Translations under genes and position numbers: made by a program
Assembly: GCF_027587205.1 (NCBI RefSeq)
Contig: NZ_JAPDOD010000050.1
Span: 1 to 64,000, forward strand
DNA: 64,000 nucleotides
Direction of reading: 5' to 3'
From: Solirubrobacter ginsenosidimutans
GTDB lineage: Bacteria; Actinomycetota; Thermoleophilia; Solirubrobacterales; Solirubrobacteraceae
Notes under the pieces: generated by a model
What the model was told of the DNA's origin: nothing
Databases searched by the model: none
What the model saw: the letters and a program-made list of their open reading frames with translations, nothing else
In this document: one piece after another, positions 9,783-30,059 of the stretch
Numbering within the stretch: position 1 is the first letter of the stretch
How the letters are laid out: each line of letters opens with the position of its first letter

Positions 9783-9787
9783 ACAGG

Positions 9788-10597: not shown

Positions 10598-10604
10598 AGG
10601 TCCC

Positions 10605-10629
10605 GCCCGGGCGCCAATGGCGCCCGGGC
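10605..10629 (+). terminator. Terminator hairpin of the SDR-regulator-phasin-reductase operon
   Basis: Perfect 11-bp arms (10605-10615 and 10619-10629) with a 3-nt AAT loop start 8 nt after the reductase stop. There is no T-tract. Confidence 0.8.
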
Positions 10630-13158: not shown

Positions 13159-13423
13159 CTGCGCACCTCCGTGCGACGGGTCCCGCCCTCTCTGAAATCA
13201 CCATGACGCGCCCGCGGCGCGCGGACGCTGGCCAAAGGCCGGGAAGGGGACTGTCCCCCGCATCCGCCGGCGCCTGAAGGTGCTCGGACGGGTGCGCGTG
13301 CAGGCCCGCCGCCGCCTCGCGGTATCTACGTTCGAGTCGGACCCACCGAGCCGTTCCGGCGGTCAGCGCGTGCCGTCAATGCGGCCAGCGTCGAGCCCGG
13401 ACGGTGGCCCGCAAGCTGTGGCG

Positions 13424-14044: not shown

Positions 14045-14062
14045 CGCGAAGGAACCAACCAA

Positions 14063-15852: not shown

Positions 15853-15888
15853 CTGCACCCATCCGTCCCTCGACCTCGAGAGGTCTGC

Positions 15889-16656
15889 ATGATCCATCGT
15901 TTCACGGGCCATCTACGCGGCAATGCCGTCGGCTACCTGGCCCTGTTCATCGCGCTCGGCGGCTCGTCCTACGCCGCCGTGCGCCTGACCCCCGGCAGCG
16001 TCAAGAGCGCCGCGATCGCCAAGCGCGCCGTCACGCACGCGAAGCTCGCACGCAACAGTGTCACGAGCGCCAACGTCGCCAAGGGCACGCTCACGCCCAG
16101 TGACTTCAAGGCCGGTACGTTCCTCCAGGGCCTCAAGGGCGACTCGGGGGATTCCGGCGGAGAAGGCTCCGACGGGCTCGACGGGCTCTCGGGCTTCAAG
16201 GGCGACGCGGGCGACGCGGGCCCGCAGGGACCGCAGGGGCCGGCCGGCAAGGACGGCAACGGCGCCATCGCGGCCAAGATCCGTCTCGGCAACACCGTCA
16301 CCGCCCCGCACGGGTCGTCGACGTCCGTCCCGCTGAGCGGCGGGAGCTGGACGCAGAGCGCCGGCCAGATCAACCTGCTCGCCGGCACGGTCACGCTCGC
16401 GGTGCCCTCGTCGTGCACGGGCTCGTTCGGCAACTCGCTCGTGATCTCGGTCGACGGCCAGGCGAACACGTTCGCCCTCGCGCCGATCGTCCCCGCGGGC
16501 ACCACGGTGACGATGCCGATCGTCGTCGGCACCATGTCCGAGACGGACGGCGACACGCAGCACACGATGACCGCCTCGTTCGCCAACTCGTGCACCAAGG
16601 GTGGCGAGGACTACGCGGTCAACGGCGCGAAGCTCGACGTCATCGCGTTCGGCTGA
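15889..16656 (+). CDS. Collagen-like secreted or membrane-associated protein
   Basis: The 255-residue protein starts with a hydrophobic N-terminus (GNAVGYLALFIALGGSSYAA) typical of Solirubrobacterales. A helical segment with repeating A-(I/K)-A/K-x-x-V/L pattern follows (about 45-75), then Gly-X-Y collagen-like repeats (about 85-125, including GPQGPQGPAGKDG). A C-terminal beta-rich globular domain holds two Cys (SSCTGSFG and NSCTKGGED). I infer a trimeric surface fibre. GAGAGG precedes the ATG. Confidence 0.85.
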   Translation: MIHRFTGHLRGNAVGYLALFIALGGSSYAAVRLTPGSVKSAAIAKRAVTHAKLARNSVTSANVAKGTLTPSDFKAGTFLQGLKGDSGDSGGEGSDGLDGLSGFKGDAGDAGPQGPQGPAGKDGNGAIAAKIRLGNTVTAPHGSSTSVPLSGGSWTQSAGQINLLAGTVTLAVPSSCTGSFGNSLVISVDGQANTFALAPIVPAGTTVTMPIVVGTMSETDGDTQHTMTASFANSCTKGGEDYAVNGAKLDVIAFG

Positions 16657-16684
16657 CCTGACTCAGACGCACCGCACGCAGCAC

Positions 16685-16713
16685 AACGGGCCGGCGCAGA
16701 GCGCCGGCCCGTT
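16685..16713 (+). terminator. Intrinsic terminator after the collagen-like gene
   Basis: Perfect 13-bp arms (16685-16697 and 16701-16713) with a 3-nt loop and TTT following the stem. It lies between convergent genes. Confidence 0.85.
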
Positions 16714-16734
16714 TGCGTGCGAGTGACGGCCGCG

Positions 16735-17001
16735 CTAGCAGCCGGGCAGCGTGACCGTCAGCGTCGGGAGCTCCAAGGGCGCGTTCTCCACGTGCACGCC
16801 CGGGCTGATGACCTTGCCGCCGATGATCACGGGGCCGATCACCACCACGACCCGGCCCATCCGCGGGGGCACGAACGTCAGCGTGCACGGAGAGCTCGCC
16901 GTGGTCACGGGAGCGGCAGCGTGCGCAGCGCCCGCGGGAGCGAGCACGGCGCCGGCGCCGATGGCCGCCGTCGCCAGCGCGCGTTTGAAGGTCCGACTCA
17001 C
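16735..17001 (-). CDS. Small secreted protein, third gene of tandem cluster
   Basis: GTG 17001 overlaps the upstream stop as GTGA, indicating translational coupling. The 88-residue product has a signal peptide (cleavage after AHA, about residue 28) and a hydrophobic mature part rich in Val/Ile/Gly ([24 protein letters not shown]) with two Cys (SSCTLTF and the C-terminal PGC-type end). Function unknown; probably exported, perhaps aggregating at the surface. Confidence 0.65.
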
Positions 17002-17297
17002 AGGACGATGACGACGTTGCCGGCGGACGTGACGACGACGCCGCCCGCCGCGCCCGTGATCACGGGTCCGGCAGCGGACGTGATCGAGGTCGCGGGTGCG
17101 ATCTGATTGACGCCGGAGCCGCAGACGATCGTGTCGTTGCCTCCGGTCTGGCCCTGCCCCTGATCGCCGATCGTGTTGTCGCAGATCGCCCCACCAGGTT
17201 CCTCCAGGAGCGCGGCGTCGGCCGCCGGCGCGCCCGCAGCGAGCGCGAGGGCGGCCGCGAGCGGCGCGAGCCGCAGCGTCCGGCGTGACAGCATCAT
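16998..17297 (-). CDS. Small secreted Cys-pair protein, tandem paralogue B
   Basis: The 99-residue protein starts MMLSRRT after a GAAAGGAA ribosome-binding site. The signal peptide ends near ADA (about residue 29). The mature part has two Cys spaced 20 residues apart with QGQTGGND between them, then a Gly/Ala/Val/Ile-rich tail ([20 protein letters not shown]). It is clearly paralogous to the product of 17411-17764. The size, export signal, Cys pair and Val/Gly-rich tail recall chaplins, but the chaplin consensus is absent. Confidence 0.75.
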
Positions 17298-17301
17298 TTG
17301 G

Positions 17302-17316
17302 TTCCTTTCGTAGGAA
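17302..17316 (-). promoter_or_regulatory. Duplicated 5' UTR element (copy B)
   Basis: TTCCTTTCGTAGGAA occurs 5 nt before the start codon at 17297 and again at 17772-17786 before the paralogous start at 17764. The outer five bases are inverted repeats (TTCCT/AGGAA), so the ribosome-binding site (GAAAGGAA in mRNA) lies in a small potential hairpin. Confidence 0.6.
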
Positions 17317-17410
17317 GCGGTGCGGGTTCAATGCTCACCGCGCCCGGCGCCCACGGGCCCGGACGCCGGGACCGTGGCGGCCGGGCCGATGGACAGCGTG
17401 AGCTCCGGCG

Positions 17411-17764
17411 CTACGGGAGGATCGAGACGTTGCCGGCGGACGTGATGACGGTGCCCGCGAAGCCCGCGGTGATGATCGTCGGGCCGATCGTGTTGGTGAT
17501 CGAGGTCTGCGGCCCGACGAAGGTCAGGCCGTTCCCGCACAGGGTCACGTCGTTGCCGCCCGTCCGCCCTTGGCCCTCGGCGCCGAACTGGTTCCCGCAC
17601 ATCGACCCGGCGGGGAACGCGGGAAGACCCGCGTAGGCGGTCGGCATCTTGAAGTTGAGCTTCGGTGCGGTGTATGCGTGCGCCGCGGGCGCGCCGGCGG
17701 CGAGCGCAACGGCTGCCGCGAGCGGAGCGAGCGGTGCGAGGAGCGGTGTACGGCGTGACAGCAT
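17411..17764 (-). CDS. Small secreted Cys-pair protein, tandem paralogue A
   Basis: ATG 17764 follows GAAAGGAAG. The 117-residue product has a signal peptide (cleavage after AHA, about residue 30), then a mature region with CGNQFGAEGQGRTGGND and LCGNG: two CGN-type Cys sites about 20 residues apart. The tail is hydrophobic and Gly/Thr/Ile-rich (GPTIITAGFAGTVITSAGNV). It is similar to 16998-17297 throughout. Likely a surface-deposited structural protein; family not recognised. Confidence 0.75.
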   Translation of the reverse strand: MLSRRTPLLAPLAPLAAAVALAAGAPAAHAYTAPKLNFKMPTAYAGLPAFPAGSMCGNQFGAEGQGRTGGNDVTLCGNGLTFVGPQTSITNTIGPTIITAGFAGTVITSAGNVSILP

Positions 17765-17771
17765 CAGTTGC

Positions 17772-17786
17772 TTCCTTTCGTAGGAA
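17772..17786 (-). promoter_or_regulatory. Duplicated 5' UTR element (copy A)
   Basis: This is the identical 15-mer to 17302-17316, placed 7 nt before the 17764 start codon. Conservation outside the coding region suggests that the tandem duplication included leader sequence or that the leader is under selection. Confidence 0.6.
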
Positions 17787-17886
17787 ATGGTGAGCTCTGA
17801 ATCCTCATCGCACCGGTCGTCGCGGGCATCGGACGCCCGGCCCGTCACCCCCCTGCTCAGGGACAGCGGGGTGCAGGGAGCCGCGC

Positions 17887-18081
17887 CTAGTCCTCGATGC
17901 TGATGACGCCCGCCGGGCACAGCGCCTCGGCGCGGCGCACGCGCTCGGCGAGCTCCGCCGGCGGGGACGGGTCGAGCAGGACGACGATGCCGTCCTCGAC
18001 ACGCTGATCGAACACCTCGGGCGCCGTGAGGACGCAGTTGCCGGAGGCGACGCACTTGGCCTGGTCGACCCTGACACGCAT
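17887..18081 (-). CDS. [3Fe-4S] ferredoxin, P450 redox partner
   Basis: AAGGAG precedes ATG 18081. The 64-residue protein has Cys10, Cys16 and Cys55 (KCVASGNC ... ALCPAG). It lacks the second cluster Cys and so matches single [3Fe-4S] ferredoxins that serve actinobacterial P450s. It is located 17 nt downstream of the P450 gene and would pass electrons to it in the cytoplasm. Confidence 0.92.
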   Translation of the reverse strand: MRVRVDQAKCVASGNCVLTAPEVFDQRVEDGIVVLLDPSPPAELAERVRRAEALCPAGVISIED

Positions 18082-18098
18082 GTGAAGCTCCTTGCTGC

Positions 18099-19313
18099 TC
18101 ACCAGCCGACGGGCAGCTCGTAGACGCCGTAGACCAATGAATCGTGCTTGAAGGGGATCCCGTCGAGGCCGACGGCCGGCCGCAGCGTGGGGATGCGGCG
18201 GAAGAGCGTTCCCAAGGCGACCTGCAGCTCGACGCGGGCCAGCGGCTGACCGAGGCACTGGTGCACCCCGAAGCCGAACGCCATATGGCCGCGAGCGTCG
18301 CGGTGGACATCCAGCCGGTCGGGGTCGGCGAACACGGAGGCGTCGCGGTTGGCCGCCTCGGTGGCCAGGATCACGCCCTCGCCGGCGCGGATCGTCTGCC
18401 CGGCGATCGGGATGTCCTGGAGCGCCACCCGGCGCCGCCCGCTCTGGACGATGCTCAGATAGCGCAGCAGTTCCTCCACGGCCGCGGCGATCAGCGCCGG
18501 GTCGTCGGTCGCGCGCAGCGCCTCGACCTGCTCGGGATGCTGCAGCAGGGCCAGCGTGCCGAGCGCGATCATGTTCGCGGTCGTCTCGTGACCGGCGACC
18601 AGCAGCAGGCTCGCCATCACCGCCGCGGCGTGACGCGTCAACTCGCCGTCGTTCACGTGCCGGGCGAGGTCGGACAGCAGGTCGCCGCGCGGGTCCGCGA
18701 GCCGCTGGCCCAGCAGTCCGTCGAGGTAGTCGGTCAGCCGCTCGCGGGCGGATCGCGCCTGCTGCGGGGTCGTCGCGTTGTTGAGCAGGATCCTGCTGTT
18801 GGCCTGGAAGAACTCGTGGTCGCCATACGGGACGCCGAGCAGCTCGCAGATCACCGACGACGGCAGCGGCAGCGCGAAGGCGGTGACCAGATCCAGCGGC
18901 GGCGGTCCGGCGAGCATGTCGTCGATCAGCCGATCGGCGATCCGCTGGATCGCCGGACGCAACGTCTCGACACGCTTGATCGCGAACGCGGCGGTGAGCA
19001 TCCGGCGCATGCGGGCATGCTCGGGGTCGTCCATGACGATGAAGCTCCGCTCCCCCGCGAGCAGCTCCTTCTGCGCCGGGCCGCGATGGGGGTAGTGCGG
19101 ATGTGAGGCGTCCGCGCTGAGGCGCGGATCGGCGAGCAGCTTGCGCTGCTCGGCGTGGCGGGTCACCAACCAGGCGATGCTGTCGTCCCAGAGCCGCACG
19201 CGGGTCAGCGGCGATGCCACCTGGAGCGCGCGCAGCGCGGGCGGTGGATCAAACGGACAGCTCGCCGCGCGCGACATCGGAAAGGCCTGAAGGCGTCGTG
19301 TCTCTGCAGCCAT
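18099..19313 (-). CDS. Cytochrome P450 (CYP105-like class)
   Basis: The 404-residue soluble P450 has AGHETT at 240-245 (I-helix oxygen activation), ExxR at 281-284 and the heme signature FGFGVHQCLGQPLAR with Cys353 as the axial ligand. Length and motifs match actinobacterial class-I P450s that use a small ferredoxin, here encoded directly downstream. The substrate cannot be deduced; no biosynthetic cluster is adjacent. An alternative start (Met13) would also give a complete enzyme. Confidence 0.95.
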   Translation of the reverse strand: MAAETRRLQAFPMSRAASCPFDPPPALRALQVASPLTRVRLWDDSIAWLVTRHAEQRKLLADPRLSADASHPHYPHRGPAQKELLAGERSFIVMDDPEHARMRRMLTAAFAIKRVETLRPAIQRIADRLIDDMLAGPPPLDLVTAFALPLPSSVICELLGVPYGDHEFFQANSRILLNNATTPQQARSARERLTDYLDGLLGQRLADPRGDLLSDLARHVNDGELTRHAAAVMASLLLVAGHETTANMIALGTLALLQHPEQVEALRATDDPALIAAAVEELLRYLSIVQSGRRRVALQDIPIAGQTIRAGEGVILATEAANRDASVFADPDRLDVHRDARGHMAFGFGVHQCLGQPLARVELQVALGTLFRRIPTLRPAVGLDGIPFKHDSLVYGVYELPVGW

Positions 19314-19376
19314 GGTGGTTCGAGTCTCCGTCCACCGGCTACCGCGCCGCCTGACTCCAGGGACGGAAAACGCAGG

Positions 19377-20426
19377 TCATCCGTCCCAGCCCACGTGAAT
19401 GTGGTCGCAGTGGTCGGCGCGCGCGAAGCCGCGGGGGTCGTCCGGGCCATCCGGGTCCCAGCAGTAGATGAGCTCCGTCGATCGCAGCGGCCCGGTCATG
19501 GCGGCGAGCTCGTGCACCAGGTTGGCGCAGCGCCCGGTCCGGATGCCGCGGCAGACCTCGCCGTCGACGGCGCCGATGTCCATCGCGCGCCCGGCGGAGT
19601 GGTTGGAGACGTTGCCGTCGACGGTGTAGGTCGAGTGGTCGGACTTCAGCGCGGTGACGACGATCGCATGGCGCTTGCCCATGTCGGCCATGATCGCCAG
19701 CACCCGCGGGTCGAGCGTGCCGGAGCGCACGTCCCCACGCTGGATCGGCGTCAGCGTGATCCCCCGGTCGTCGAGGATCTCCGGCACCGTGACCGACGGT
19801 GGCGGAACGTCATCCGTTCCGCCGCCGCCGGGCAGCGGTGTCGCGGACCGGTACTGGTCGGCTTTGGCGAGGACCTCATTGACGTACCAGACCGCGTGGT
19901 TGTAGGCGAAGATCGCCTTGCGGTAGTCGTCGGGCGCGCCGCCGGCGACGAGATAGCGGGCGGCGGCGGGGATCGCGTCGGCCGGGTCATACGGGGACTT
20001 CGTGCCGTCGCCGTTGCCGTCGACGCCGTAGCTGTCCCACGTGCTCGGCGAGCCGATGACCGAGAACTGCATCGGGCCCGCGCAGCACCCGTAGGTGTTC
20101 ACGCCCGAGCTGACGCCCGGCGCCGTGGACCGGCCGTGGTCGGTCTCGATCGAGCCGATCGCCGCGAGGATCCACGGGTCGATGCCATAGCGCTCACCCG
20201 CGGCCTCGTAGAGCTCGAGGTAGAGCGACGGGATGTCGCCGCGCGCGAGGGACGACGGGCCGGACCCGCCGGTCTGCAGCGGCTGCAGGCCGAAGACGGC
20301 GCCGATGATCCCCATCAGGAACACGAACAAGATCACGCCGAGCGCGGACAGCGCCGCGAGCACCTTCGGGCCGAGGCGGCGGCGCCGCCGGACCACTTCC
20401 ACGGCGATGGCCAGCGGCAGCGCCAC
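19377..20426 (-). CDS. Cell-wall hydrolase of T4SS operon: lytic transglycosylase plus M15-like peptidase
   Basis: The 349-residue protein (GTG 20426) has a membrane segment (about 21-45). A transglycosylase-like domain (about 62-190) includes the presumed catalytic Glu in GSIETDHGRS and the AGPMQFSVIGSPSTW segment. The C-terminal domain (about 225-349) has NVSNHSAGRAMDIGAV and HCDHIHVGW, which match the metal-ligand pattern of M15/LAS-type peptidases. It resembles TcpG/VirB1-type proteins that open peptidoglycan for conjugation machines. It is the last gene of the operon, 3 nt after the previous stop. Confidence 0.85.
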   Translation of the reverse strand: MALPLAIAVEVVRRRRRLGPKVLAALSALGVILFVFLMGIIGAVFGLQPLQTGGSGPSSLARGDIPSLYLELYEAAGERYGIDPWILAAIGSIETDHGRSTAPGVSSGVNTYGCCAGPMQFSVIGSPSTWDSYGVDGNGDGTKSPYDPADAIPAAARYLVAGGAPDDYRKAIFAYNHAVWYVNEVLAKADQYRSATPLPGGGGTDDVPPPSVTVPEILDDRGITLTPIQRGDVRSGTLDPRVLAIMADMGKRHAIVVTALKSDHSTYTVDGNVSNHSAGRAMDIGAVDGEVCRGIRTGRCANLVHELAAMTGPLRSTELIYCWDPDGPDDPRGFARADHCDHIHVGWDG

Positions 20427-20429
20427 GCG

Positions 20430-21026
20430 TCAGCTCTCCACGCCGGTGACCGTCCAGCGCCCGCCCGCGGCACGGGCGAGCTCGAGCGCGAGCGTGTAGA
20501 CGCCGGAGCCGTCGGCGACGAGCGCGGTCAGCGTCGCCGCCCGCGCGTCGACGCCGTTGCTCTGCAGCAGCCGCACCCGCGGATGGTGCGCGCGGATGCG
20601 TCGTGGCACCCGCGGCGGCTGCTGCGTCAGGTCGTGCTTGAGCGCCGGCGCTGCGCCGCGGATCGCGCGTGCACGCCCACGGCCATAGGAGAACGCGAGG
20701 TAGCCGGTGAGGAAGCGACGCGCGGCGCCCTTGGCCGCGCGGACCTCTGCGGGCGACGCGGCGGTCGCGGGCTCGGCCTGGCCCTCCTCGCTCGGTGGGG
20801 CCGCGGGCGTCGGGGTCGCCTGCGGCGGCGGACCCGCGTCGCTCGTCGCGGTCGCGGTCTGCTGCGCGTGCGGCTCCGTCTTGCCCTGCCGCGACGCGCC
20901 GGCGCCGTCGAGCAGGGCCATCACGGCGACGACGGCGACGACGACGGCGACCGTGCACGCGAACAGGCGCAGCCGGTCGCCGTCGCGCAGCGGCCGGTTG
21001 GCGGCCTGACGGAGCGCGTCAAGCAT
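20430..21026 (-). CDS. Membrane-anchored T4SS accessory protein (VirB8/NTF2-like candidate)
   Basis: ATG 21026 overlaps the upstream gene by 8 bp. The 198-residue product has one N-terminal membrane segment (about 22-40), a disordered Ala/Pro/Gln linker (45-90) and a C-terminal domain (about 93-198). That domain contains AAKGAARRFLTGYLAFSYG and ends RWTVTGV, reminiscent of the NTF2-like fold of VirB8/TcpC proteins. The topology (short N-in, single helix, extracytoplasmic domain) fits a scaffold protein of the secretion channel. Confidence 0.65.
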   Translation of the reverse strand: MLDALRQAANRPLRDGDRLRLFACTVAVVVAVVAVMALLDGAGASRQGKTEPHAQQTATATSDAGPPPQATPTPAAPPSEEGQAEPATAASPAEVRAAKGAARRFLTGYLAFSYGRGRARAIRGAAPALKHDLTQQPPRVPRRIRAHHPRVRLLQSNGVDARAATLTALVADGSGVYTLALELARAAGGRWTVTGVES

Positions 21027-23103
21027 CGCGCTCCTCGTCGCTCTGGTCGTCACGCTGCCGGAGCTCGCGCGCCCGCCGCATGACATCGTCGTGCGACCCG
21101 CGCGGGGTCGTGTCGGCGTGCACGGCCGGCTCGGCGGGTGAATACGCGTGGGCCGGCGCCTCGGCCGCGGAGTTGCCGCGGGAGCGCCATGAGGCTCGCA
21201 CGAGGCGCGCCGGCCGCTCGCCGGTGGACAAGCCGTCCGGGGTCGCGGACCCGTCGCGAGCCGGGGTCGCGGACCCGTTGCGAGCCGCGGACGCATCCGG
21301 AGCGGCGGGCCCGGTGTGCGGGGCGACGCCATTGGCGCCGTTGCCGTTCGCGTGCACGTCGACGTGCGCGTGCGCGTCGCTGCGCACCGGCGGCGCGCCG
21401 TTCGCCGAGCCTTCGGGTCCGGCGCCATTCGCGGAGCGCCCGGGTCCGGCGCCGTTCGCGGAGTGGCCGGGTCCCGCGCCGTTCGTGGAGTGGACGGGTC
21501 CCGCGCCATTCGCCGGCTCACCCGCATGCGCCGGATCGGACGTGACGATCGACCCGCCGCCGAGCGCGCTCTCCTGCTGCTTGGACCCGCGCTCGTCCTC
21601 GCCGCGGTCGCGGCGGGCCACGCCGACGAGCGCGACGAACGGGGCCGCGGCGGCCGCGCCGGCGCGCTGCGCGACCGTCATCGGCGGCATCGACGGCCCG
21701 CCTCCCGCGCCCGACGTCGCCCCTACCAGCCGCGCGGTGATCTGCTTGCGATAGAGGAAGATCGCCCAGAAGAAGATCGCTTCCAGCGCGAACGCGAACA
21801 GGAACCCGAGCGACGCGGTCGCACTCGTCAACGCCGCCGCGACCGCCACGACGATCGCGATCGTCAGGGAATAGAGCGCCTTGATGAAGATCGCCGTGGC
21901 GAGCTTGCTCAACCAGCCGCGGAACACGTCGTGGCCGGTTCCCGGGAAGATGCCCACGATCAGCGCGATCGGCGCGAACCCCAGCAGGACCAGCGCCACC
22001 ACCTGCGCCAGGATCACCGCCAGCGACAGGAACCCGAGCAGGCAGACCGCGCCGAGTGCCCCGGCGAAGATCACGATCGTGACGGTCAATCGCTGGTAGG
22101 CGCCGCCCGCCTGCTGGATGTCCACCGCGGGCGCGTCGGACTTGTCGACGTGGTAGCCCTTGAACTGCGTCCCCCCCAGCGCCGGCAGCTCGCCCTTCTT
22201 GAGGGCTTCGTACTCCGCATCGCGCGCATCCGAACCGGGCGCCTGGCTGAGGAACCGCGGCGCGTAGCCGCCGAACCCGTCGGCGCTCGCGCGCAGGTGA
22301 TTGCGGCACACGTCGCGCGCGGGATCGTGCGGCCCGACGGGCGTCGGGAACCCGTCGGAGTCGCGCTTGCCGGTGTCGACGCAGTGCGACAGGCCGCCGA
22401 ATTCGAGGACGACCCACGGCTTGTACACGAGCGTGTCGAAGAGCTGGTCCGCCACCTGGCGCTTCGCGCCCTGCGGATCGTCGAGCGAGCCCTGCGTCGT
22501 CCCCGAGAGAAACGCGAGCGACAGCTGGTTCGTCCACTTGCTCGCCTGCCCGATCGTCTGCGCCGGCTGGTAGACGAAGAACAGCGCCACCAGCACGTAG
22601 GTGAGCGAGAGGGCCAACGCCCCCGCGGTCTCCGTGTAGCGGCGCTGCATCAGGGCCTTCCAGATCCCCCAGACGCCGGCGATCAGGATCGCGGCGACCG
22701 TCCACGACTGGCCGATCACGTTCTCGTACAGGCTGGTGATCGCGTTCGAGACAGGCCCGAGCGCGCCGCCGGACCCGTTGAGCAGATCCAGCGAGAACGC
22801 CCACGTGAACAGGTCGATCACCGACTTCACGAGAAAGCTGGTGATGTTCCACAGCTGCGCCGCGGCCCACTGGGCGATCATCGGCGGGATGCCGTCGGGG
22901 TTGGTGACGCCGACGTCCACGTGGTAGTCGAGCGTGTAAGCCGACAGCGGGTAGCGGTCGACGAGCCCTCCCGCGACCTGCGACTCGGGCCCGATGTTGC
23001 CGAGGACGTCGCTGCCGCGGTACTCGGCGGAGGCGAGCGGTGAAGCGAGGAGGAGGAAGAAGCCGACGGCCGCGGTGAGCAGCCACCGCCGGCGAACCCT
23101 CAC
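21019..23103 (-). CDS. Polytopic T4SS channel protein (VirB6/TrbL/TcpH-like)
   Basis: GTG 23103 overlaps the VirB4-like stop as GTGA. The 694-residue product begins with a signal-like helix (RRWLLTAAVGFFLLLASPLASA). Several membrane helices follow (about 75-115, 125-190, 330-470) with an extracytoplasmic loop between them. From about residue 480 to the end it is hydrophilic and low complexity, including a 9-residue tandem repeat NGAGPGHSA. Size, topology and position after the VirB4 ATPase fit the VirB6/TrbL-like pore component of Gram-positive conjugation systems. Confidence 0.75.
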   Translation of the reverse strand: MRVRRRWLLTAAVGFFLLLASPLASAEYRGSDVLGNIGPESQVAGGLVDRYPLSAYTLDYHVDVGVTNPDGIPPMIAQWAAAQLWNITSFLVKSVIDLFTWAFSLDLLNGSGGALGPVSNAITSLYENVIGQSWTVAAILIAGVWGIWKALMQRRYTETAGALALSLTYVLVALFFVYQPAQTIGQASKWTNQLSLAFLSGTTQGSLDDPQGAKRQVADQLFDTLVYKPWVVLEFGGLSHCVDTGKRDSDGFPTPVGPHDPARDVCRNHLRASADGFGGYAPRFLSQAPGSDARDAEYEALKKGELPALGGTQFKGYHVDKSDAPAVDIQQAGGAYQRLTVTIVIFAGALGAVCLLGFLSLAVILAQVVALVLLGFAPIALIVGIFPGTGHDVFRGWLSKLATAIFIKALYSLTIAIVVAVAAALTSATASLGFLFAFALEAIFFWAIFLYRKQITARLVGATSGAGGGPSMPPMTVAQRAGAAAAAPFVALVGVARRDRGEDERGSKQQESALGGGSIVTSDPAHAGEPANGAGPVHSTNGAGPGHSANGAGPGRSANGAGPEGSANGAPPVRSDAHAHVDVHANGNGANGVAPHTGPAAPDASAARNGSATPARDGSATPDGLSTGERPARLVRASWRSRGNSAAEAPAHAYSPAEPAVHADTTPRGSHDDVMRRARELRQRDDQSDEERDA
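21394..21501 (-). repeat. Four tandem 27-bp units within the VirB6-like gene
   Basis: Units at 21394-21420, 21421-21447, 21448-21474 and 21475-21501 differ by a few bases and encode the 9-residue repeat NGAGPxxSx; a partial fifth follows. The period is a multiple of three, so copy number can change in frame. Confidence 0.8.
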
Positions 23104-25514
23104 GCGGCCTCCTGCAAGCGCATGCCCGGGGACGTGTCGAGCACGCGCAGGAGGTGCTCGTAGACCGGCTCGATCTGCAACTCGGCGACGCGGTCGTCGA
23201 TGTCGCGCATGAGACAGCGCCCGCGCCGGTAGGCGCGCAGGCGCTCGACCATGGCCCGGTCCTCCGGGTCCAATCCGAGCAGCTCCAGCGCGCGCCGCGC
23301 CTCCGCGACCGTCTCCTGGCCGAAGATGAAGCGCGTCCCGATCAGGTTCTCGATCTCCCCGACGTCGGTCAGCTGCTGCGTGGCCAGGATCAGCGTCGCG
23401 TTCTCCGTCCGCCCCAGCCGGTTCAGCCGGTCGATCAACCGGCGCCCGTCGCGCGACGCGAGCAGGAACCACGCCTCGTCGAAGAGCACGACCTTGTGCA
23501 CGGACCGGTCACCGCTCACCAGCCGCATCGCGTACGCGGCGATCAACTTCAGCGTCGCGACCCCGAGCCGCTCGGCCTGGTCGTAGTCCGTGCGCGGGAC
23601 GCCCGGCACGGGGAGCGCGAGGCCGCGCGCCTTGATGGTGGTGACCGGGCGCGAGGCGGAGATCCGCTCGGTCGTCCCGTCGCCGAACCCGAGGCGCGCG
23701 ACGCCCGAGTCCGACCACACCGCCAGCGCTTCGCCGACGGCTCGCGCGTCGGAGTCGGCCCCGTGCAGCAGCGTGTCGACGACGCGCAGGCAGCTCGGCT
23801 GCCGATGCTCGAGGACCGTTCGCACCGCCTTGCGAACCTGCGTCTCCCACGCGGCGGGCGCTTGCGGCAGCAGCTCCATCAGGTACGAGCTGGCGAGATC
23901 CTCGCGCAGCGCGTCCGGTGCCACGACGAGGGGATCGAGCAGCCCGCGGTAGCGATCGTGGCCGGACAGCTCGATGACGTGCACGCGCTTGTCGAGCTCC
24001 GGCAGCCCTTCGAGATTGTGGTCGGGCTTGGGGTCCACGTCGACGATCAGGCTGCCTCGACGCTCGGCCTGGTACGCGAGCAGCTCGGCGGCGATCGTCT
24101 TCCCCGAGCCGAGCGTGCCCGCCAGCAGGATCGACGGCGGGCGCCCCGTCCGCGATGCCTCGGTGATGTCGAAGCGCACCGGCCGCGCGCCGCCCGTCAG
24201 CGTCCGCCCGAGGTACACACCGCGCTCCGAGCCCGCCTGGTGGGTCCCGATCGGCATCAGCGCACCGAACTGCTCGATCGTCAGCACATCCGCGTAGTCG
24301 CGTACCGTGCCGCCGTCGGCCCGAGGCAGATGGTCCATGAAGAGCGCCGGCTGCAGCCCCAGCGGGCGGTGGAGCGTGACCGTCCCGTACTGGTGGACCA
24401 AGGCGGCCACGCGGTGCTCGAGCTCATCGCGGGACTCCGCCCCGACGGCCAGCGAGATCGCGCAGTTCAGCAGCGGCGGCCGTTCGTGCGACTGCAGGTA
24501 GGCATCGAGCTCGCGCGCCAGTTGCCGGTTCTCCTCGACCGAGTACGAGAGCGGGCCGTGCGAGGAATGCAGCTGCTCCGAGAAGGCGACGTCGGCGTCG
24601 ATGATCCGCCGGCGCACGCGGGTGATCGCCTCGCGGTTGCCCAGCCAGCGGGCGTGTACGACCGCGTCGACCGGGAACGGCACCGCCTCCAGCGGTGAGA
24701 AGAGCAACTCGGCCCCGCCGGGAAACTCGACCTCCTCGGGCAGCGCGCCGAGCGCGAGCAGCGCCTGGTGCGAGCGGCCGGCCTCCGCGTCGATGACCAG
24801 CGAGCGCTCGTGCTCGTACACGGGCGCGTTGACGTGCCGGATGAGGTCGTTGCTGAGCGGCTCGTACGCCGGCCGCCCGTTCGCCTCGACGATCAGCGCG
24901 GCCGGCTCCCAATGCGGGTCCACGACCGGTTCGGCGACGCCGCGGCTTGAGGCACGGCGCAGCAGCCACTGCAGCTCGCGCGTGGTGGCGCGGCGCAGCG
25001 GCAGGCACGCTTCGGCACGCCGGAGCGCGCGTTCCTCCGCCACGATCAGCGCCTCGAGCTCCGCCGCCGCGATCGGCAGGGTACGCCGGACGCCGAACAG
25101 CCCCTCGACACGCTGGCGCGCGCGGCCGAGCCCGCGCTTGACGCCCGACCCGCCCGGAGGCGTGAGCGAGACGGCGAGGTAGACCTCGGGCACGAACGCG
25201 CGCAGCTGCCGCAGGTGCGTCTCATGGCCCTTCAGGTACTGGCGCCAAGCGATCGACGACTGTCCGCGGTCGTCGAGGAGGGACTGCGCCTGCGCCGCGT
25301 ACTCGTCCGCCGGGTAGGCGCGGCACACGCGCCACAGCGAGAAGTCCGCCTCGGCGGAGAAGGCGAACCGCGCCATCCGGCGCAGCCATTCGCGTTTGTC
25401 GGCAGCCGCGAGGAAGGGATAGGAGACGGTGTCGAGGCGGTACAGCGCGGCGTACGCCTCGCCGTCGCCGATCAGGAGATTCTGGTGGACGTAGCGCAGT
25501 GGGAAGCCGTTCAC
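23100..25514 (-). CDS. VirB4/TcpF-type T4SS ATPase
   Basis: GTG 25514 overlaps the TcpE-like stop as GTGA. The 804-residue protein has Walker A GTLGSGKT (466-473), Walker B VVLFDEAW (675-682) and the downstream ATQQLTDVGEIEN segment typical of VirB4 ATPases, with a long N-terminal region that docks on the membrane complex. VirB4 proteins energise pilus or channel assembly at the inner membrane. It is the hallmark gene that identifies this operon as a type IV secretion system rather than another membrane complex. Confidence 0.92.
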   Translation of the reverse strand: MNGFPLRYVHQNLLIGDGEAYAALYRLDTVSYPFLAAADKREWLRRMARFAFSAEADFSLWRVCRAYPADEYAAQAQSLLDDRGQSSIAWRQYLKGHETHLRQLRAFVPEVYLAVSLTPPGGSGVKRGLGRARQRVEGLFGVRRTLPIAAAELEALIVAEERALRRAEACLPLRRATTRELQWLLRRASSRGVAEPVVDPHWEPAALIVEANGRPAYEPLSNDLIRHVNAPVYEHERSLVIDAEAGRSHQALLALGALPEEVEFPGGAELLFSPLEAVPFPVDAVVHARWLGNREAITRVRRRIIDADVAFSEQLHSSHGPLSYSVEENRQLARELDAYLQSHERPPLLNCAISLAVGAESRDELEHRVAALVHQYGTVTLHRPLGLQPALFMDHLPRADGGTVRDYADVLTIEQFGALMPIGTHQAGSERGVYLGRTLTGGARPVRFDITEASRTGRPPSILLAGTLGSGKTIAAELLAYQAERRGSLIVDVDPKPDHNLEGLPELDKRVHVIELSGHDRYRGLLDPLVVAPDALREDLASSYLMELLPQAPAAWETQVRKAVRTVLEHRQPSCLRVVDTLLHGADSDARAVGEALAVWSDSGVARLGFGDGTTERISASRPVTTIKARGLALPVPGVPRTDYDQAERLGVATLKLIAAYAMRLVSGDRSVHKVVLFDEAWFLLASRDGRRLIDRLNRLGRTENATLILATQQLTDVGEIENLIGTRFIFGQETVAEARRALELLGLDPEDRAMVERLRAYRRGRCLMRDIDDRVAELQIEPVYEHLLRVLDTSPGMRLQEAA

Positions 25515-26077
25515 GGGCGTACCTCGAGTCGCTCGCCCGGGCACAGCACGACGGCCTCGCCGCGCGGCCCCTCAGCGGCGGGACGCGCCACCAGCCCGCG
25601 CAGGTGCAGCGGCACGTTGAACGTGATGCGCGCCGGCCCGGTCACGCGCCCGCGCGCGAGCCGCGTGCCGTGCTGATCCCAGGTCACGCCGAGCTCGCCG
25701 TGCCACAGCACCCGCTCACCCTCCAGCGGCATGACCCGGCCCGCGGAGCGCCGGCGCGCGCGCAGCTTGAAACCGACCCATTCGGCGGCGAAGCGGTGCG
25801 CGGCGCGGCCGTCGGGAGCGGCCTGCGAGCCGAGCACGGCGACCGCGAGCGGGATGATGACGTAGCGCAGCGGCGCGGAGATCGCGCCGATCAGCTCGCC
25901 CGTCGCGGGGAGGACGCTGAGGAGGACCGTGAGAACCACCGTCGCCGCGAAGTACCCGACCGCGCGCAACGGGATCCCGCCCGGCACCGGAAGCGCCCAG
26001 CGGTCGATGCGATAGATCCTCCGGTCGACCTCGAAGACCCGCCGATAGGAGCGGATGAGCAGGCGGTCACGTGCCAT
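25511..26077 (-). CDS. TcpE-like conjugal transfer membrane protein
   Basis: The 188-residue protein has a basic N-terminus (RSYRRVFEVDRRIYRIDRWALP), two adjacent membrane helices (about 38-60 and 68-85) and a soluble C-terminal half containing beta-rich sequence. This N-terminal layout matches the TcpE/PrgI-like small membrane proteins that sit next to the VirB4 ATPase in Gram-positive systems. It overlaps the preceding gene by 11 bp. Confidence 0.7.
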   Translation of the reverse strand: MARDRLLIRSYRRVFEVDRRIYRIDRWALPVPGGIPLRAVGYFAATVVLTVLLSVLPATGELIGAISAPLRYVIIPLAVAVLGSQAAPDGRAAHRFAAEWVGFKLRARRRSAGRVMPLEGERVLWHGELGVTWDQHGTRLARGRVTGPARITFNVPLHLRGLVARPAAEGPRGEAVVLCPGERLEVRP

Positions 26078-26372
26078 TCGTCACGGTCTGCCAGATGCTT
26101 TGCACGGTGTTGGCGATCTCGTGGGGCGCGAGCACGAACCCGCCGACGAGGACGGCGGCGCCCATGAAGACCGCCAGGTCGGTGAACTTGCGGGTCATCA
26201 GGAACAAGATCGCCACGATCGCCGCGACGCCGATGTACAGACTCTTGGCCCATGTGCCGAGCATGTGGCTGATGTTCTCGCCGACCCGCTCGCCATCTCC
26301 CGCGTACGCCGGCGCGGTGAGCACCCACACCCACACGGCCGTTCCCATTCCGTAAAGCAGCTTGCGCATCAT
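26067..26372 (-). CDS. Small two-helix membrane protein (VirB2/TcpD-like)
   Basis: The start lies in a TGATG junction with the upstream gene. The 101-residue product has a signal peptide (cleavage after AYA, about residue 24) and two membrane helices (about 46-60 and 65-85). Length, cleavable signal and paired helices match VirB2/TrbC pilin-like or TcpD-like subunits. The exact class cannot be settled by eye. Confidence 0.7.
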   Translation of the reverse strand: MMRKLLYGMGTAVWVWVLTAPAYAGDGERVGENISHMLGTWAKSLYIGVAAIVAILFLMTRKFTDLAVFMGAAVLVGGFVLAPHEIANTVQSIWQTVTNGT

Positions 26373-27247
26373 CAACCCCCTGTGACCGCCGCCACGTACC
26401 AGCGGTCGTGTCGAACGAGCTGCAGGCGATACCTGAGCCCATAAGTCGCGCGAGACTGCTCGTCCCGCACCTGAACACTCGTCCACACGGCGCGCGTGTC
26501 TCCCTTGGGCGGCGCCGCGAGCATCAGCGACGTGATGCCGACCAGCTCGTAGGGCTGGCCGACGGGCGAGATCCTCGTCCCAGGCGGGACGAGGTATTCG
26601 AGCCCGTTCGCGTCACCGGCCAGGTACGCGGTGAGGAACCGTTTGAGAACGTCTTCGATCGCCGCGCGCTCGCTCGAGTCGACGGGGTCGTAGGACGGCG
26701 CCTCGATGACGGCGCGCGCCGGAGGCCCGACCAGCGCCGGGAGGTCGCTGACGACGAGCCCGCCGCGGGCGTCGCGGGCGACGGGGACGGCCAGATAGCG
26801 CGTGCCGTCGCCGACCGCCGCCGCGACGGTGATCAAGGCCTGCGAGGGGCCGAGTTGCGCGACCCGAGCCACGGAGACGGCACCGACGTCCTGGCGCGAG
26901 TGCGCGGCGTACTCGGCGGCGATCGCCGGCGCCAGATCAGGCGTGACGTAGCGCTCGAGCGACGGCTCCGGCGCGGTCAGATACGCCCGCGCGAAATCCG
27001 CGGCGAACGCGCGCGCCTCCTCGTCGGGCCACGTCGCGATCGGGTGCGCCAGCGGCTTGACGACGGTGGGCGACGCTTCGCCGTCGGTCGCCAGCAGGCT
27101 CACGAGCCCGCGCGCCAGCACCACGATCACGAGCATCCAGAGGAGTCCGCGGCCGATGCGCTTGAACAGGTCCGCCGGCGTCCGGAGCGCGCGTGCCGAG
27201 CGACGATCGGGCCGGCTTGCGCCGAACCTCAGATGCGCCATGGGCAC
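26372..27247 (-). CDS. TcpC-like T4SS scaffold protein
   Basis: The 291-residue protein (GTG 27247, or ATG 27241 two codons later) has an N-terminal basic region, one membrane helix (about 34-52) and two successive domains (about 70-180 and 185-291). The second contains LKRFLTAYLAGDANGLEYLVPPG and ends with beta strands, the pattern of the tandem NTF2-like domains of TcpC. TcpC is the essential core scaffold of clostridial and other Gram-positive conjugation machines. It is the first gene of the operon. Confidence 0.8.
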   Translation of the reverse strand: MPMAHLRFGASRPDRRSARALRTPADLFKRIGRGLLWMLVIVVLARGLVSLLATDGEASPTVVKPLAHPIATWPDEEARAFAADFARAYLTAPEPSLERYVTPDLAPAIAAEYAAHSRQDVGAVSVARVAQLGPSQALITVAAAVGDGTRYLAVPVARDARGGLVVSDLPALVGPPARAVIEAPSYDPVDSSERAAIEDVLKRFLTAYLAGDANGLEYLVPPGTRISPVGQPYELVGITSLMLAAPPKGDTRAVWTSVQVRDEQSRATYGLRYRLQLVRHDRWYVAAVTGG

Positions 27248-27460
27248 GAAGGCGAGATGTCGACGTGACGTTGCAGCGTCTGCATCGCCACACGGTGGCC
27301 AGGCCGCCGCGGCGATGCCAAACGCCGCCAGGCGGATTCGCCCAATCGGGCGATCGGGCGAACCGGACTAGGGGACGACCGTCACTGTCCCGGAGGGGCG
27401 CAGATGCGAGCGGGCCCGATCGCCAGGCTGAGCGCATGGTCCATTACGCGGGAGCACAGC

Positions 27461-27491
27461 GACGGCGCGCCGTGACCAACGGCGCGCCGTC
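27461..27491 (-). terminator. Hairpin terminator downstream of the esterase gene
   Basis: Perfect 13-bp arms (27461-27473 and 27479-27491), each containing GGCGCGCC, surround a 5-nt loop. The stem lies 31 nt beyond the stop of the minus-strand esterase gene and upstream of the divergently placed secretion operon's leader. Confidence 0.75.
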
Positions 27492-27521
27492 GCGCTGGGA
27501 GCGCCTACTCGAGCGCGTGGG

Positions 27522-28715
27522 CTACGGGCGCTTCGAGAGGCTGTGGGGAGGCCAAGGAAGCGGCGACGCCGGTTGCGTCGGCGTGGGCCAGCCGGTGGGC
27601 GGCGCCGGCCAGCCGGTGGGAGCCGTCGGCGTGCCGGTGGTCGGTGACGTGGGCCAGCCGGTCGGCGGCCACGTGATCGGCCCCGTGGGCGTGTTGCCGC
27701 CGAGCGCCGGGCCGGGATCGCCGAGCGGATGCGTGGCGAAGAAGTCGTACATCGCCTCGGATTCGTCCGGGCCCGCGGCGTCGGAGTACTGCGCGGACGG
27801 ATCGCCGCCGGACCAGGCGTGACCCATGCCCTTGATCACCCAGTACTCGCCGAGCTCGTGTCCGTGACCGTCGGAGTAGTACTTCACCGTGTACGAGCGG
27901 CCGCCCTTGGACTTGCCGCTGACCGTCTTGACCGCGGCGCTCGGCACCGAGTGGTTCTCCTGGCCGTCGTCGGCCCAATCCGCCGTGATCTGCTGCGTGC
28001 GCACGAGCTGATCGGCATTCACCGGCGGGACCGTCTTGTCCTGGTCGCCCTGGAAGACGATGAACGGCACCGGCCGCGCGAACGCGCCCATCGCTTCGTA
28101 CGCCCGCTTGCCCGCCTGCTCCGGGTCGGCGCTCTTGTATCCGGCGCAGGCCGCTCCGGCGGTGTACTCGCAACCCGACCCGACGCCGACGGCCGAGTAG
28201 AGGTCCGGGTAGGTGGCCGCCATCACGGAGGCCATCGCGCCGCCGGCCGAGAGGCCGGTGATGGACACGTGCCGCGGGTCGACGCTGTACTGGGACTCCA
28301 GCTGCAAGGTGAGGCCGGCGATCAGCGACGGCTCGCCCGCGGCGCGGTTGACGTTCGCGTCCGTGAACCAGTTCCAGCACCGGAGCGAGTTGTTGGCTTC
28401 GGTCTGCTCCGGATACGCGACGATGAACCCGTCGGCGGCCGCCAGATCGTCGAGATGACTCAGCGTGCGGAACTGGGCCGCGGTCTGCGTACAACCGTGC
28501 AGGGCGATGACGAGCGGCATCGGCGTGCCGGCCTGGTAGCTCGGCGGCACGTAGAACTCGTAGCCGATCGCGCCGGCGGGGTTGCTGTACGTGTCGCCTA
28601 TCGAGAGGTTGCCATTGAGCGGTTCCGCCTGCGTGACGGCTGGGTGCAGTGCTACGGCCGAGGCGACGATCGCACAGGCAATCGCCACGCCAGCCCTACA
28701 GGGGCTGATGTGCAT
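27522..28715 (-). CDS. Extracellular PHB-depolymerase-family esterase
   Basis: The 397-residue protein has a signal peptide (cleavage near TQA, about residue 30). Its alpha/beta hydrolase domain has LHGCTQTA (oxyanion), nucleophile Ser156 in GLSAGG, Asp226 in GDQDKTVPP and His299 in GMGHAWSGG. These motifs define the poly(3-hydroxybutyrate) depolymerase/feruloyl esterase family (LpqC-like). A C-terminal tail of about 55 residues is a Trp/Pro/Thr repeat (PTGWPxPP). The enzyme would act outside the cell on short polyesters or aryl esters. A PucR-type regulator is divergently encoded. Confidence 0.9.
   Translation of the reverse strand: MHISPCRAGVAIACAIVASAVALHPAVTQAEPLNGNLSIGDTYSNPAGAIGYEFYVPPSYQAGTPMPLVIALHGCTQTAAQFRTLSHLDDLAAADGFIVAYPEQTEANNSLRCWNWFTDANVNRAAGEPSLIAGLTLQLESQYSVDPRHVSITGLSAGGAMASVMAATYPDLYSAVGVGSGCEYTAGAACAGYKSADPEQAGKRAYEAMGAFARPVPFIVFQGDQDKTVPPVNADQLVRTQQITADWADDGQENHSVPSAAVKTVSGKSKGGRSYTVKYYSDGHGHELGEYWVIKGMGHAWSGGDPSAQYSDAAGPDESEAMYDFFATHPLGDPGPALGGNTPTGPITWPPTGWPTSPTTGTPTAPTGWPAPPTGWPTPTQPASPLPWPPHSLSKRP
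27582..27672 (-). repeat. Imperfect repeats encoding Trp-Pro-rich tail
   Basis: Copies of GGCCAGCCGGTGGG-like sequence recur several times and encode PTGWP units at the esterase C-terminus. Confidence 0.6.
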
Positions 28716-28814
28716 GGTTAGGACGCTATGTGCGGTTTGCCACCTGAACCATTCGGCAAAGCGAGGACTCTGCGGCGCGGCGCTCGTAGGATCCACAAGA
28801 GGGTGGGTGCGGAC

Positions 28815-30059
28815 ATGGCGGTGAGTCGGCCGCGCCACAGCGCGCTCTGCGATCTCGGCGACCGCGTCCTCGCCGACAAGGAGCGCATCGTCCGCCGCAC
28901 GCTGAACCGCTTCCGCGAGGAGCTGGTGGGCTGGCAGGACGTCGACGACGAGATCATGGCGGCCACGCGCGTGTTCATGCTGCGCAACATCGAGGCGTTC
29001 GTCAGCGAGCTCGAGCGTGGCGAGCCGGTCGGCGACGATCTGCTGCAGGCCGCGCGCGCCGTCGCGGCGCGGCGCTTTCACCAAGGCGTCACCTTCGAAG
29101 GGCTGTTGCGCGCGAGCCGGCTGGCGGCCGAGACGCTGTGGGATTCCGTGCTCGCCGCTTCGCGGCCCGAGTGTCCCGAAGAGCGCGAGGCCGCGCTGGC
29201 CATCGCCGGTCGCGTGTGGCGCCATTTCGACACGCTGACGACCGCCATGGGGCACGCGTATCTCGACGAGATGACCGACCGCGGCCTGCTCGGCCACGAC
29301 CTGCTCGACGGGCTCCTCGCGGGGCGCGGCGACGAGGAGGCGGTGCATCGGATCGCCAGGGTGCTGCACCGGCGCCTCGCGGACAGTTACGTCGTCGTGC
29401 TGATCCGCTTCGAGCAGCCGCTCGAGAACGGGGCCCTGCGCAACGATCGCGCCGTCGATCACATGCTCCCGGCCGTGCGCGCCGCGCTGCGCCCGAGCGA
29501 GGCCTCGCTGCTGGTCGGGATCCGCCAGGGCGACGTGGTCGCGCTGCGCCCGGCCGCCGAACCCAGTGAGCTCGAAACCGTCAGGCACGAGTGCGAGCAG
29601 CTCAACCGCACCGTCCCCTTCGAGATGAGCATCGGCGTGAGCGGGTGGCAGCCGGGGCCGCGCGCGGTCGCAACCGCCTATGCCGAGGCCCGCGAGGCGC
29701 TGGACATCGCGGCCGGCATCGGGATCACCGGCCGCGCGGTGACGCTGGACGACGTGCTCGTCGACCACATGCTCCGCGCGAGCCCCCACGCGCGGCGGAT
29801 CCTCGAGCGGACGCTGCGAACGCTCACCGACTACGACGACTCGCACAACAGTCAACTGCTGTTGACGCTGCGCGCCTACGTCGAGTCCGGCGCCAACCTG
29901 ACGCGCAGCGCCGCCGCGCTCAAGGTGCACCCGAACACCGTCGTGTACCGGCTGCGCCGCATCGCGGAGATCTCAGGCCGTGCCCCGAGCTCGATGGCCG
30001 ACCTGCAGGTCCTCTTCCTCGCACTGAGGCTGCGCGATCTGAGCGCACGCACCGACTAG
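28815..30059 (+). CDS. PucR/CdaR-type transcriptional regulator
   Basis: The 414-residue protein has an N-terminal helical domain, a central GGDEF-like region (about 170-330) and a C-terminal PucR-type helix-turn-helix (LLLTLRAYVESGANLTRSAAALKVHPNTVVYRLRRI, split here only for description of its position, about 352-390). Such regulators respond to metabolites. Divergent arrangement with the esterase, 99 nt apart, suggests control of that gene. Start could also be an in-frame GTG at 28803. Confidence 0.88.
   Translation: MAVSRPRHSALCDLGDRVLADKERIVRRTLNRFREELVGWQDVDDEIMAATRVFMLRNIEAFVSELERGEPVGDDLLQAARAVAARRFHQGVTFEGLLRASRLAAETLWDSVLAASRPECPEEREAALAIAGRVWRHFDTLTTAMGHAYLDEMTDRGLLGHDLLDGLLAGRGDEEAVHRIARVLHRRLADSYVVVLIRFEQPLENGALRNDRAVDHMLPAVRAALRPSEASLLVGIRQGDVVALRPAAEPSELETVRHECEQLNRTVPFEMSIGVSGWQPGPRAVATAYAEAREALDIAAGIGITGRAVTLDDVLVDHMLRASPHARRILERTLRTLTDYDDSHNSQLLLTLRAYVESGANLTRSAAALKVHPNTVVYRLRRIAEISGRAPSSMADLQVLFLALRLRDLSARTD

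Follow-up and report, generated by a model that had tools for sequence, protein, structure and literature searches.

A type IV secretion operon without linked mobilisation genes in Solirubrobacter ginsenosidimutans, probably derived from an integrative and conjugative element

A 64,000-nucleotide stretch of Solirubrobacter ginsenosidimutans DNA (assembly GCF_027587205.1, contig NZ_JAPDOD010000050.1, positions 1 to 64,000; termed the window in the following) harbors a minus-strand operon of seven genes at positions 19377-27247. As judged from profile matches and gene order, these genes encode the apparatus of a Gram-positive type IV secretion system (T4SS) similar to Tcp systems and to mating-pair formation class FA (MPF-FA). 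Tightly packed open frames, the failure to find mobilisation genes or attachment (att) sites in 64 kb, an empty chromosomal site, and kinship with an element at a tRNA-Thr gene point to an orphan derived from an integrative and conjugative element (ICE). We slightly favor reading the operon as a mating-channel module which stems from an integrative element of the Gram-positive type and was kept without a coupling protein, a relaxase or initiator, and an integrase. The module is not self-mobile from its site in the window. Domestication of this copy is plausible but unproven, and a defective ICE is possible.

The sequence-only reading of this DNA had proposed seven minus-strand genes with overlapping or nearly overlapping ends. 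Re-reading and retranslation confirmed their number, order, and strand. Listed in the order of transcription, they are:

26372..27247, minus strand: tcpC-like gene for a VirB8-class wall scaffold, 291 aa (Pfam PF12642, E 6e-20)
26067..26372, minus strand: virB2/tcpD-like gene for a small membrane protein, 101 aa (PF04956 and TcpD, both below cut-off)
25511..26077, minus strand: tcpE-like gene, 188 aa (PF12648, 2e-12)
23100..25514, minus strand: virB4 ATPase gene, about 804 aa, with the open reading frame (ORF) opening at 25544 (AAA_10 and TcpF)
21019..23103, minus strand: gene for a virB6/trbL-like channel protein, 694 aa (PF04610, 1e-6)
20430..21026, minus strand: gene for a second, single-pass protein of predicted VirB8 (NTF2-like) fold, 198 aa (AlphaFold model, weak Foldseek matches, 10-row alignment)
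19377..20426, minus strand: gene for a wall hydrolase with a transmembrane helix, a lytic transglycosylase domain, and a C-terminal H..D..HxH stretch (SLT_2, PF13406, 4e-8)

Successive genes overlap by 1, 11, 4, 4, and 8 nt, and a 3-nt gap precedes the last one. All seven reading frames are open and the start/stop overlaps are retained.

The identities proposed for TcpC, TcpE, VirB4, VirB6, and the transglycosylase were checked with hidden Markov models of Pfam and NCBIfam, and each found its match. VirB4 is the signature ATPase of T4SSs. The window protein matched AAA_10 (PF12846, 4e-61); its top NCBIfam model was TcpF (3e-68) with 230 bits, far under the cut-off of 1100 for that model. Its Walker A (GTLGSGKT) and Walker B (VVLFDEAW) motifs are intact, and a PDB sequence search with it gave no match. 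The most likely start is position 25514, a correction which agrees with 804-aa homologues; the VirB6 start was corrected to 23103. The VirB6-like protein reached 117 of 120 bits with the CD3337/EF1877 model (8e-34). A weak sequence match (E 0.002) linked the TcpC-like product to structure 3ub1, deposited as 'ORF13-like protein', which we take to be TcpC of pCW3. The hydrolase matched the lytic transglycosylases 1ltm/1d0k by sequence (E 1e-4); its C-terminus, possibly a zinc peptidase, found no library match.

Two further labels were less clear. The 101-aa protein, read as VirB2/TcpD-like, matched TrbC/VirB2 (PF04956, 9e-5) and NCBIfam TcpD (0.02), but both below cut-off; a counterpart with 59% identity occupies the same position in Solirubrobacter deserti. 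For the single-pass protein, the label VirB8-like held as a predicted fold and not as a family, since no significant family match was obtained. In its AlphaFold model (mean pLDDT 80, pTM 0.56), a linker of poor prediction quality connects a transmembrane helix to a helix-helix-four-strand, NTF2-like domain. A Foldseek search with this model gave no match at E 0.001. Many of its weak matches are NTF2/cystatin-like, and they include the VirB8-like OrfG of ICESt3 (6zgn, rank 16, E 0.05) and TraM of pIP501 (4ec6, rank 48, E 0.15).

Mobilisation genes were searched for in the whole window. No coupling protein or relaxase was found among 37 window ORFs scanned against Pfam, a scan which alone covered relaxase families other than Replic_Relax and RepSA. 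The scanned ORFs outside the operon were metabolic, transport, sensory, regulatory, or gas-vesicle genes or had no match. Profiles of the related VirD4-like ATPase, Replic_Relax, integrase, and methylase had no match in the 64 kb; neither had 16 other genes of an S. deserti element, including FtsK, RepSA, and integrase, at E ≤ 0.01. No tRNA gene was found in the window and no convincing copy of the 46-bp att site of S. deserti, the best match covering 15 bases (E 0.25). Among the 20 repeat families shown of at least 60, none was a direct repeat marking the borders of the segment that carries the operon. Hence the earlier statement that no VirD4/TcpA, relaxase, integrase, or att-like site is visible was borne out within the window. 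An ordinary intact ICE at this locus was rejected: the sister element of S. deserti spans 21.8 kb, and the window offers 19.4 and 36.7 kb of flank without its genes or att site. Membership in the actinomycete integrative and conjugative elements (AICEs) of the pSAM2 type was also rejected; RepSA, FtsK-type Tra, Xis, Int, and a tRNA site were not found in the window.

S. deserti (G001:C62; L001, L002) is the nearest named relative, its VirB4 being 81% identical. A 46-bp direct repeat on one side and the tRNA-Thr gene end that matches it on the other enclose the T4SS of this species, which is part of the following element:

L086 16012 to L087 17904: S. deserti element with RepSA, FtsK, Xis-like gene, Int, T4SS, and a 46-bp att site at tRNA-Thr

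It encodes Xre, FtsK (PF01580, 2e-11), RepSA (PF20199, 1e-143), a Xis-like HTH protein, and a tyrosine integrase, and its flanks are 2.4 kb apart in genome G136. The sequence-only reading had named a linked relaxase and coupling protein, or presence/absence between strains with att sites, as the mark of an ordinary ICE; such genes and sites were not found in the window, but are present in the S. deserti element. This pSAM2-like element also combines the full T4SS with a cargo of HicAB, a C5 methylase, and unknown genes. In G140 (L085/L089, G140:C416), a 19.5-kb sister element occupies a different tRNA-Thr gene, has 48-bp repeats, and carries FtsK, Rep, and Int homologues as recognized by blastp and gene order. 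The window locus was rejected as a copy of the S. deserti or G140 locus, the flanks being different. RepSA matches occurred in 10 of 146 family genomes, six of them over the cut-off, and elements joining a pSAM2-type AICE core with a T4SS were found in S. deserti and G140. Solirubrobacter lies, as we assume, outside the Actinomycetales. A 2011 survey of 275 actinobacterial genomes states, for its first criteria, that no AICE was found outside the Actinomycetales (PMC3218068).

Comparison with G136 revealed an empty site. The features concerned are:

17036..27696, no strand: extra segment between aligned flanks, 10.7 kb here against 0.7 kb in G136 (blastn of the window versus L080, six-frame view)
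18099..19313, minus strand: cytochrome P450 gene, 63 nt after the hydrolase gene (PF00067, 2e-30)
17887..18081, minus strand: ferredoxin gene, 64 aa, 17 nt after the P450 gene (Fer4_13, 3.5e-10)
28728..30059, plus strand: PucR-family regulator gene in the right flank, serving as the marker for linkage (PF13556, PF17853)

Window positions 1666-17035 and 27697-30025 were collinear with G136:C2 on both sides in blastn. G136 lacks the segment, its two flanks almost adjoin, and the genome gave no VirB4 match. The net extra DNA of the window thus consists of the ferredoxin, P450, and T4SS genes; the P450 gene is absent from the empty site. P450 and ferredoxin share the operon strand, and the ferredoxin gene had not been named before. 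The best P450 match was 43% identical, in seven genomes of the S. deserti group. A conserved module including P450 and ferredoxin was unsupported, as no P450 above 43% was found in those seven genomes.

A VirB4 tree (quick method, 104 rows, P-row fragments below 780 aa such as P0070 left out) placed the window protein in a clade of 10 rows with SH-aLRT support of 100. This clade includes homologues P0019 and P0020 and is nested in a larger clade holding the S. deserti copy; its other nine VirB4s measure 802-805 aa. VirB4 matches were obtained in 38 of the 146 family genomes. Because of this distribution, the empty site in G136, and the tRNA-integrated kin, the window T4SS appears to be an ICE-derived module rather than a system of ancient origin shared throughout the order. 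A plasmid origin was rejected: the top-ranked plasmid VirB4 was 29.8% identical (Nonomuraea) and all 790 matching records stayed below 60%. Additionally, a 141,737-bp contig labeled 'viral' in IMG/VR (L124) encodes a VirB4 45% identical to that of the window, and may be a conjugative element or a phage-plasmid.

The likeness to tcp/ICE-type conjugation loci was sustained by the TcpF-like VirB4, by the TcpC and TcpE matches, and by a recurrent gene order. Of 33 loci around a VirB4 relative that were collected from named genomes, 32 come from Thermoleophilia and one, at 23%, from Paenibacillus. Within the Thermoleophilia set, tblastn matched VirB6 in 31 loci, SLT in 27, TcpE in 26, and TcpC in 20, and the matched T4SS genes stood in the same order throughout, a recurrence which argues against chance. 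These 32 loci are non-independent (some belong to one species or one metagenome-assembled genome), and many are cut by contig ends. A VirD4-like ATPase was matched in 18 of them, Replic_Relax in 16, and an integrase in 12, with profiles built from 18, 9, and 11 sequences of the same loci. The VirD4-like protein of L024 had no Pfam match and Walker-like motifs recognized by eye, and the VirD4-like P0132 had no match in the PDB by sequence. Contig ends truncate eight of the 14 loci without the VirD4-like ATPase. Another ATPase is present in L023 and L028, of a family whose G003 member coincides with a PF02534 match; in L025, an ATPase lies upstream and one ORF resembles Replic_Relax, both named by eye. 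In L018 (4525-22145, G106) the T4SS lies between lepA-like and murJ/holA-like genes, assigned by eye, and no mobilisation gene was found there; G106 additionally has an ICE-type VirB4 and a T4SS of the Lon-locus type described below. Most relatives with enough flank thus carry the system as an ICE apparatus. A cluster of genes for 520-780 aa (L014 4475-6823, L024 3541-5823) was observed near the T4SS in 17 loci. The two members tested, from L014 and L024, have bacterial Ig-like domains and lie beside a weakly matching sigma-70 region 4 protein, perhaps forming a regulated surface adhesin.

Linkage of the module to its right neighbor was followed through contig sizes. The contig encoding VirB4 homologue P0019 measures 15,740 bp and that of P0020 29,089 bp (both homologues 90% identical). 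Identical sizes recur, with the same sources, for the contigs of the PucR homologues P0260 (79%) and P0259 (81%), respectively. VirB4 and the same PucR neighbor therefore seem to be joined on both contigs, neither of which is among the 120 P450 matches listed. As the PucR proteins of these contigs are only 79-81% identical, the arrangement is not very recent.

Several observations weigh against a retained module. The linkage was deduced from equal contig size and source, not from a reading of the contigs, and was seen for two of five VirB4 homologues of at least 85% identity on contigs above 10 kb. A closer homologue (P0013, VirB4 95%) is on a 218,770-bp contig which has no PucR among the 120 listed, and P0014 and P0021 (the latter on a 66,334-bp contig) likewise have no listed PucR; conversely, the 98,688-bp contig of PucR P0255 (87%) shows no VirB4 among those listed. 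These lists hold the best 120 of 931 VirB4 matches and the best 120 of 261 PucR matches. The partnerless contigs of P0013 and P0255 indicate that the module is not fixed at the PucR site. Regarding insertion versus deletion, the comparison has a single empty site. The T4SS of the G140 sister element is broken in VirB4 and VirB6; thus, loss is tolerated there. Finally, dN/dS between window and S. deserti was 0.18 for VirB4, 0.35-0.49 for TcpC, the VirB2-like protein, TcpE, VirB6, and the hydrolase, and the second VirB8-fold protein reached 0.81; control values between window and G136 were 0.37 for AsnB and 0.69 for PucR. Among the T4SS genes only VirB4 is clearly constrained beyond the AsnB control. 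The proposed check of synteny gave a mixed outcome, with the empty G136 site and the 38 of 146 genomes on one side and the apparent PucR linkage on two contigs on the other.

The main rival, in our view an unlikely one, is a fragment of a defective ICE in the course of being lost; its genes would be intact only because mobilisation was lost recently, and would have no function of their own. The nearest kin are mobile elements, the G140 copy is broken, VirB4 is patchy in the family, no PucR is listed beside the 95% homologue P0013, and evolution of the second VirB8-fold protein is fast, all of which suits a relic. The seven open frames with intact start/stop overlaps and the uniform length of the nine other VirB4s of the clade speak against it, as does the apparent PucR linkage with its age. 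Domestication without activity as a mobile element, which the sequence-only reading held possible, is supported in so far as no linked mobilisation genes were found, and is plausible but unproven for the window copy, whose kin is a mobile element.

Still less probable is a helper acting in trans, a split conjugation system in which other elements of the same genome would supply the channel with FtsK or a coupling protein and with a relaxase or initiator. FtsK and RepSA are encoded on the same element as the T4SS in S. deserti and G140, and RepSA matches occur in G138 and G139, both without a VirB4 match. Coupling proteins encoded far from virB4 are described in PMC12102498. The window itself, however, has no relaxase or type IV coupling protein match.

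A complex for development or chromosome handling like cmdA-F of Streptomyces coelicolor is very improbable. Those genes are also chromosomal; one encodes an ATPase and five encode membrane proteins, three of the six are like plasmid transfer genes, and loss of the cluster delays sporulation and leaves plasmid transfer unchanged (PMC2782261). However, the window module is patchy and ICE-related, and the listed VirB4 relatives from Streptomyces plasmids are 24-27% identical. A chimeric contig, in which an element was joined to unrelated chromosome, is scarcely credible: the listing gives a contig of 66,742 bp for the window P450, but collinearity with G136 extends over both flanks, and VirB4 seems to share two further contigs with the same PucR.

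Under the favored interpretation of a kept mating-channel module, descent would have started from an S. deserti-like element; next, the mobilisation half would have been lost, or the T4SS half moved to the locus of polyhydroxybutyrate (PHB) esterase and PucR. The proteins may assemble into a single-membrane, wall-crossing T4SS with VirB4 as the motor and VirB6 and TcpE as the base. TcpC and the second VirB8-fold protein would form the wall channel and the transglycosylase would open the wall; TcpC/VirB8-type proteins are wall subunits in monoderms (PMC11753425). The machine might export or import a substrate without a linked coupling protein, or serve elements elsewhere in the genome. T4SSs without VirD4 exist, with Ptl and Brucella VirB given as examples in PMC12102498.

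A more distant T4SS type was found among 26 further regions. One VirB4 type is carried by 21 of them, 58-75% identical to the G105 copy and about 42% to that of the window. Flanks were available for 18 of the 21, from 18 genomes, and all 18 show at least part of one neighborhood:

L092-L096, L103, L106-L108, L110, L113-L117, L119-L121: Lon-locus regions

In G105, Lon and BrkB/YihY come first, then one gene without a name, the T4SS and a ferredoxin reductase, followed by two more unnamed genes and one that resembles CbiQ. The reductase has Pyr_redox_2 and Reductase_C domains in Pfam scans of the G105 copies. Lon and the reductase were each matched in 13 regions. Representatives of the two VirD4 families and of Replic_Relax, integrase, FtsK, and RepSA had no tblastn match at E ≤ 1e-8 in any of the 21 regions, which cover 4-20 kb each. 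TcpC was unmatched in G105, and the hydrolase in G103, G106, G117, and G009, though the contig continues. Walker A and the Walker B-like FDEGW were present in all 15 readable VirB4s of 16 tried, and 15 VirB4s of this type fell on one side of a branch with support of 96.

VirB4 of the Lon type had dN/dS values of 0.14-0.29 in all six computable pairs of the seven tried; neighboring genes gave 0.11-0.23 (Lon), 0.19-0.35 (reductase), and 0.19-0.42 (YihY), with dS often near 1. The reductase ORF, taken from its furthest possible start, follows the hydrolase gene by 9-98 nt in eight of the nine loci with both, and by 451 nt in the ninth. Mantel tests gave r = 0.70 for VirB4 and the FAD reductase (p 0.005, 12 genomes), 0.41 for VirB4 and Lon (p 0.024, 9), and 0.41 for VirB4 and YihY (p 0.029, 12); VirB6 and Lon (0.13, p 0.27, 8) and Lon and the FAD reductase (0.02, p 0.44, 7) were not significant. 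These tests are no more than suggestive of shared descent at the locus. Across the 146 family genomes, PF02534 was matched in 63, some matches being weak and partial, P0132 in 11, and Replic_Relax in 56, 50 of which exceeded the cut-off. Where listed, PF02534 and Replic_Relax matches of Lon-type genomes are on other contigs. G096, G097, G098, G104, G105, G107, and G115 had no match to PF02534 or P0132; all seven have Replic_Relax matches on other contigs (best E 1e-38 to 1e-7) and the search did not cover FtsK/TcpA-type proteins, so mobilisation genes may be present in these genomes. Domestication of the Lon-locus type is well supported, and better so than that of the window copy, by the shared locus and the low dN/dS of VirB4.

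The window operon was rejected as a member of the Lon-locus type, as its neighbors differ and its VirB4 belongs to another clade. Redox genes lie 3' of both T4SS types on the T4SS strand, P450 and ferredoxin in the window (17887-19313) and ferredoxin reductase in L096 (14805-16064), which may be coincidence. Tentatively, Solirubrobacterales might have captured Gram-positive-type T4SSs repeatedly for a non-conjugative chromosomal task, the Lon type having stayed at one locus in at least 18 genomes and the window copy as a separate, younger capture; the P450-type redox genes may then point to export linked to redox or secondary metabolites. Free-living actinobacteria with a Lon-type T4SS at a shared chromosomal locus (18 genomes), no coupling protein or relaxase found linked to it, and VirB4 under purifying selection provide a direct test case.

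Elsewhere in the window, three GvpL/GvpF gas-vesicle genes (43720-46822) were observed in what is presumed to be a soil Solirubrobacter relative, and three GAF-domain histidine kinases (36924-38165, 40673-42781, 61454-63754) lie within 27 kb.

No description of this T4SS was found among the open-licence papers seen on type IV secretion in Solirubrobacter/Thermoleophilia, on AICEs, and on actinobacterial VirB4. Among known systems, Tcp/MPF-FA loci (pCW3 tcp, Tn916, ICESt3) share TcpC, TcpE, VirB4, VirB6, a VirB8-fold protein, and a hydrolase with the window, whereas the window has no TcpA/VirD4, relaxase, or integrase match. The gene order of the window T4SS recurs in 18 Solirubrobacterales ICE loci with VirB4 48-56% identical; in these, a VirD4-like ATPase and, for the most part, Replic_Relax, a methylase, and an integrase follow downstream, and the window lacks matches to them. 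The Lon-locus T4SS resembles the window in its TcpC-TcpE-VirB4-VirB6-SLT set without linked coupling protein, relaxase, or integrase, but differs in locus, VirB4 clade, and the ferredoxin reductase in place of P450 and ferredoxin. Two systems were set beside the window by description only. The T4SSs of Patescibacteria (Quinonero-Coronel et al. 2025, PMC12102498) are chromosomal and monoderm, mostly without relaxase, inferred there to be co-opted, very widespread in that group, equipped with VirB2-like pilins, and of the MPF-FATA class. The S. coelicolor cmdA-F genes (PMC2782261) form a chromosomal transfer-like cluster with one ATPase, dispensable for plasmid transfer and found in the Streptomyces species examined there. 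The S. deserti and G140 elements agree with the window in T4SS genes and gene order. They differ in being inserted at tRNA-Thr genes, with a size of 21.8 kb and 46-bp repeats in S. deserti and of 19.5 kb and 48-bp repeats in G140, and in encoding RepSA, FtsK, and integrase; the window yielded no such tRNA gene, repeat, or gene match. This comparison reveals elements which combine a pSAM2-type AICE core with a T4SS, and it shows how the channel genes of an ICE can end up alone in a chromosome.

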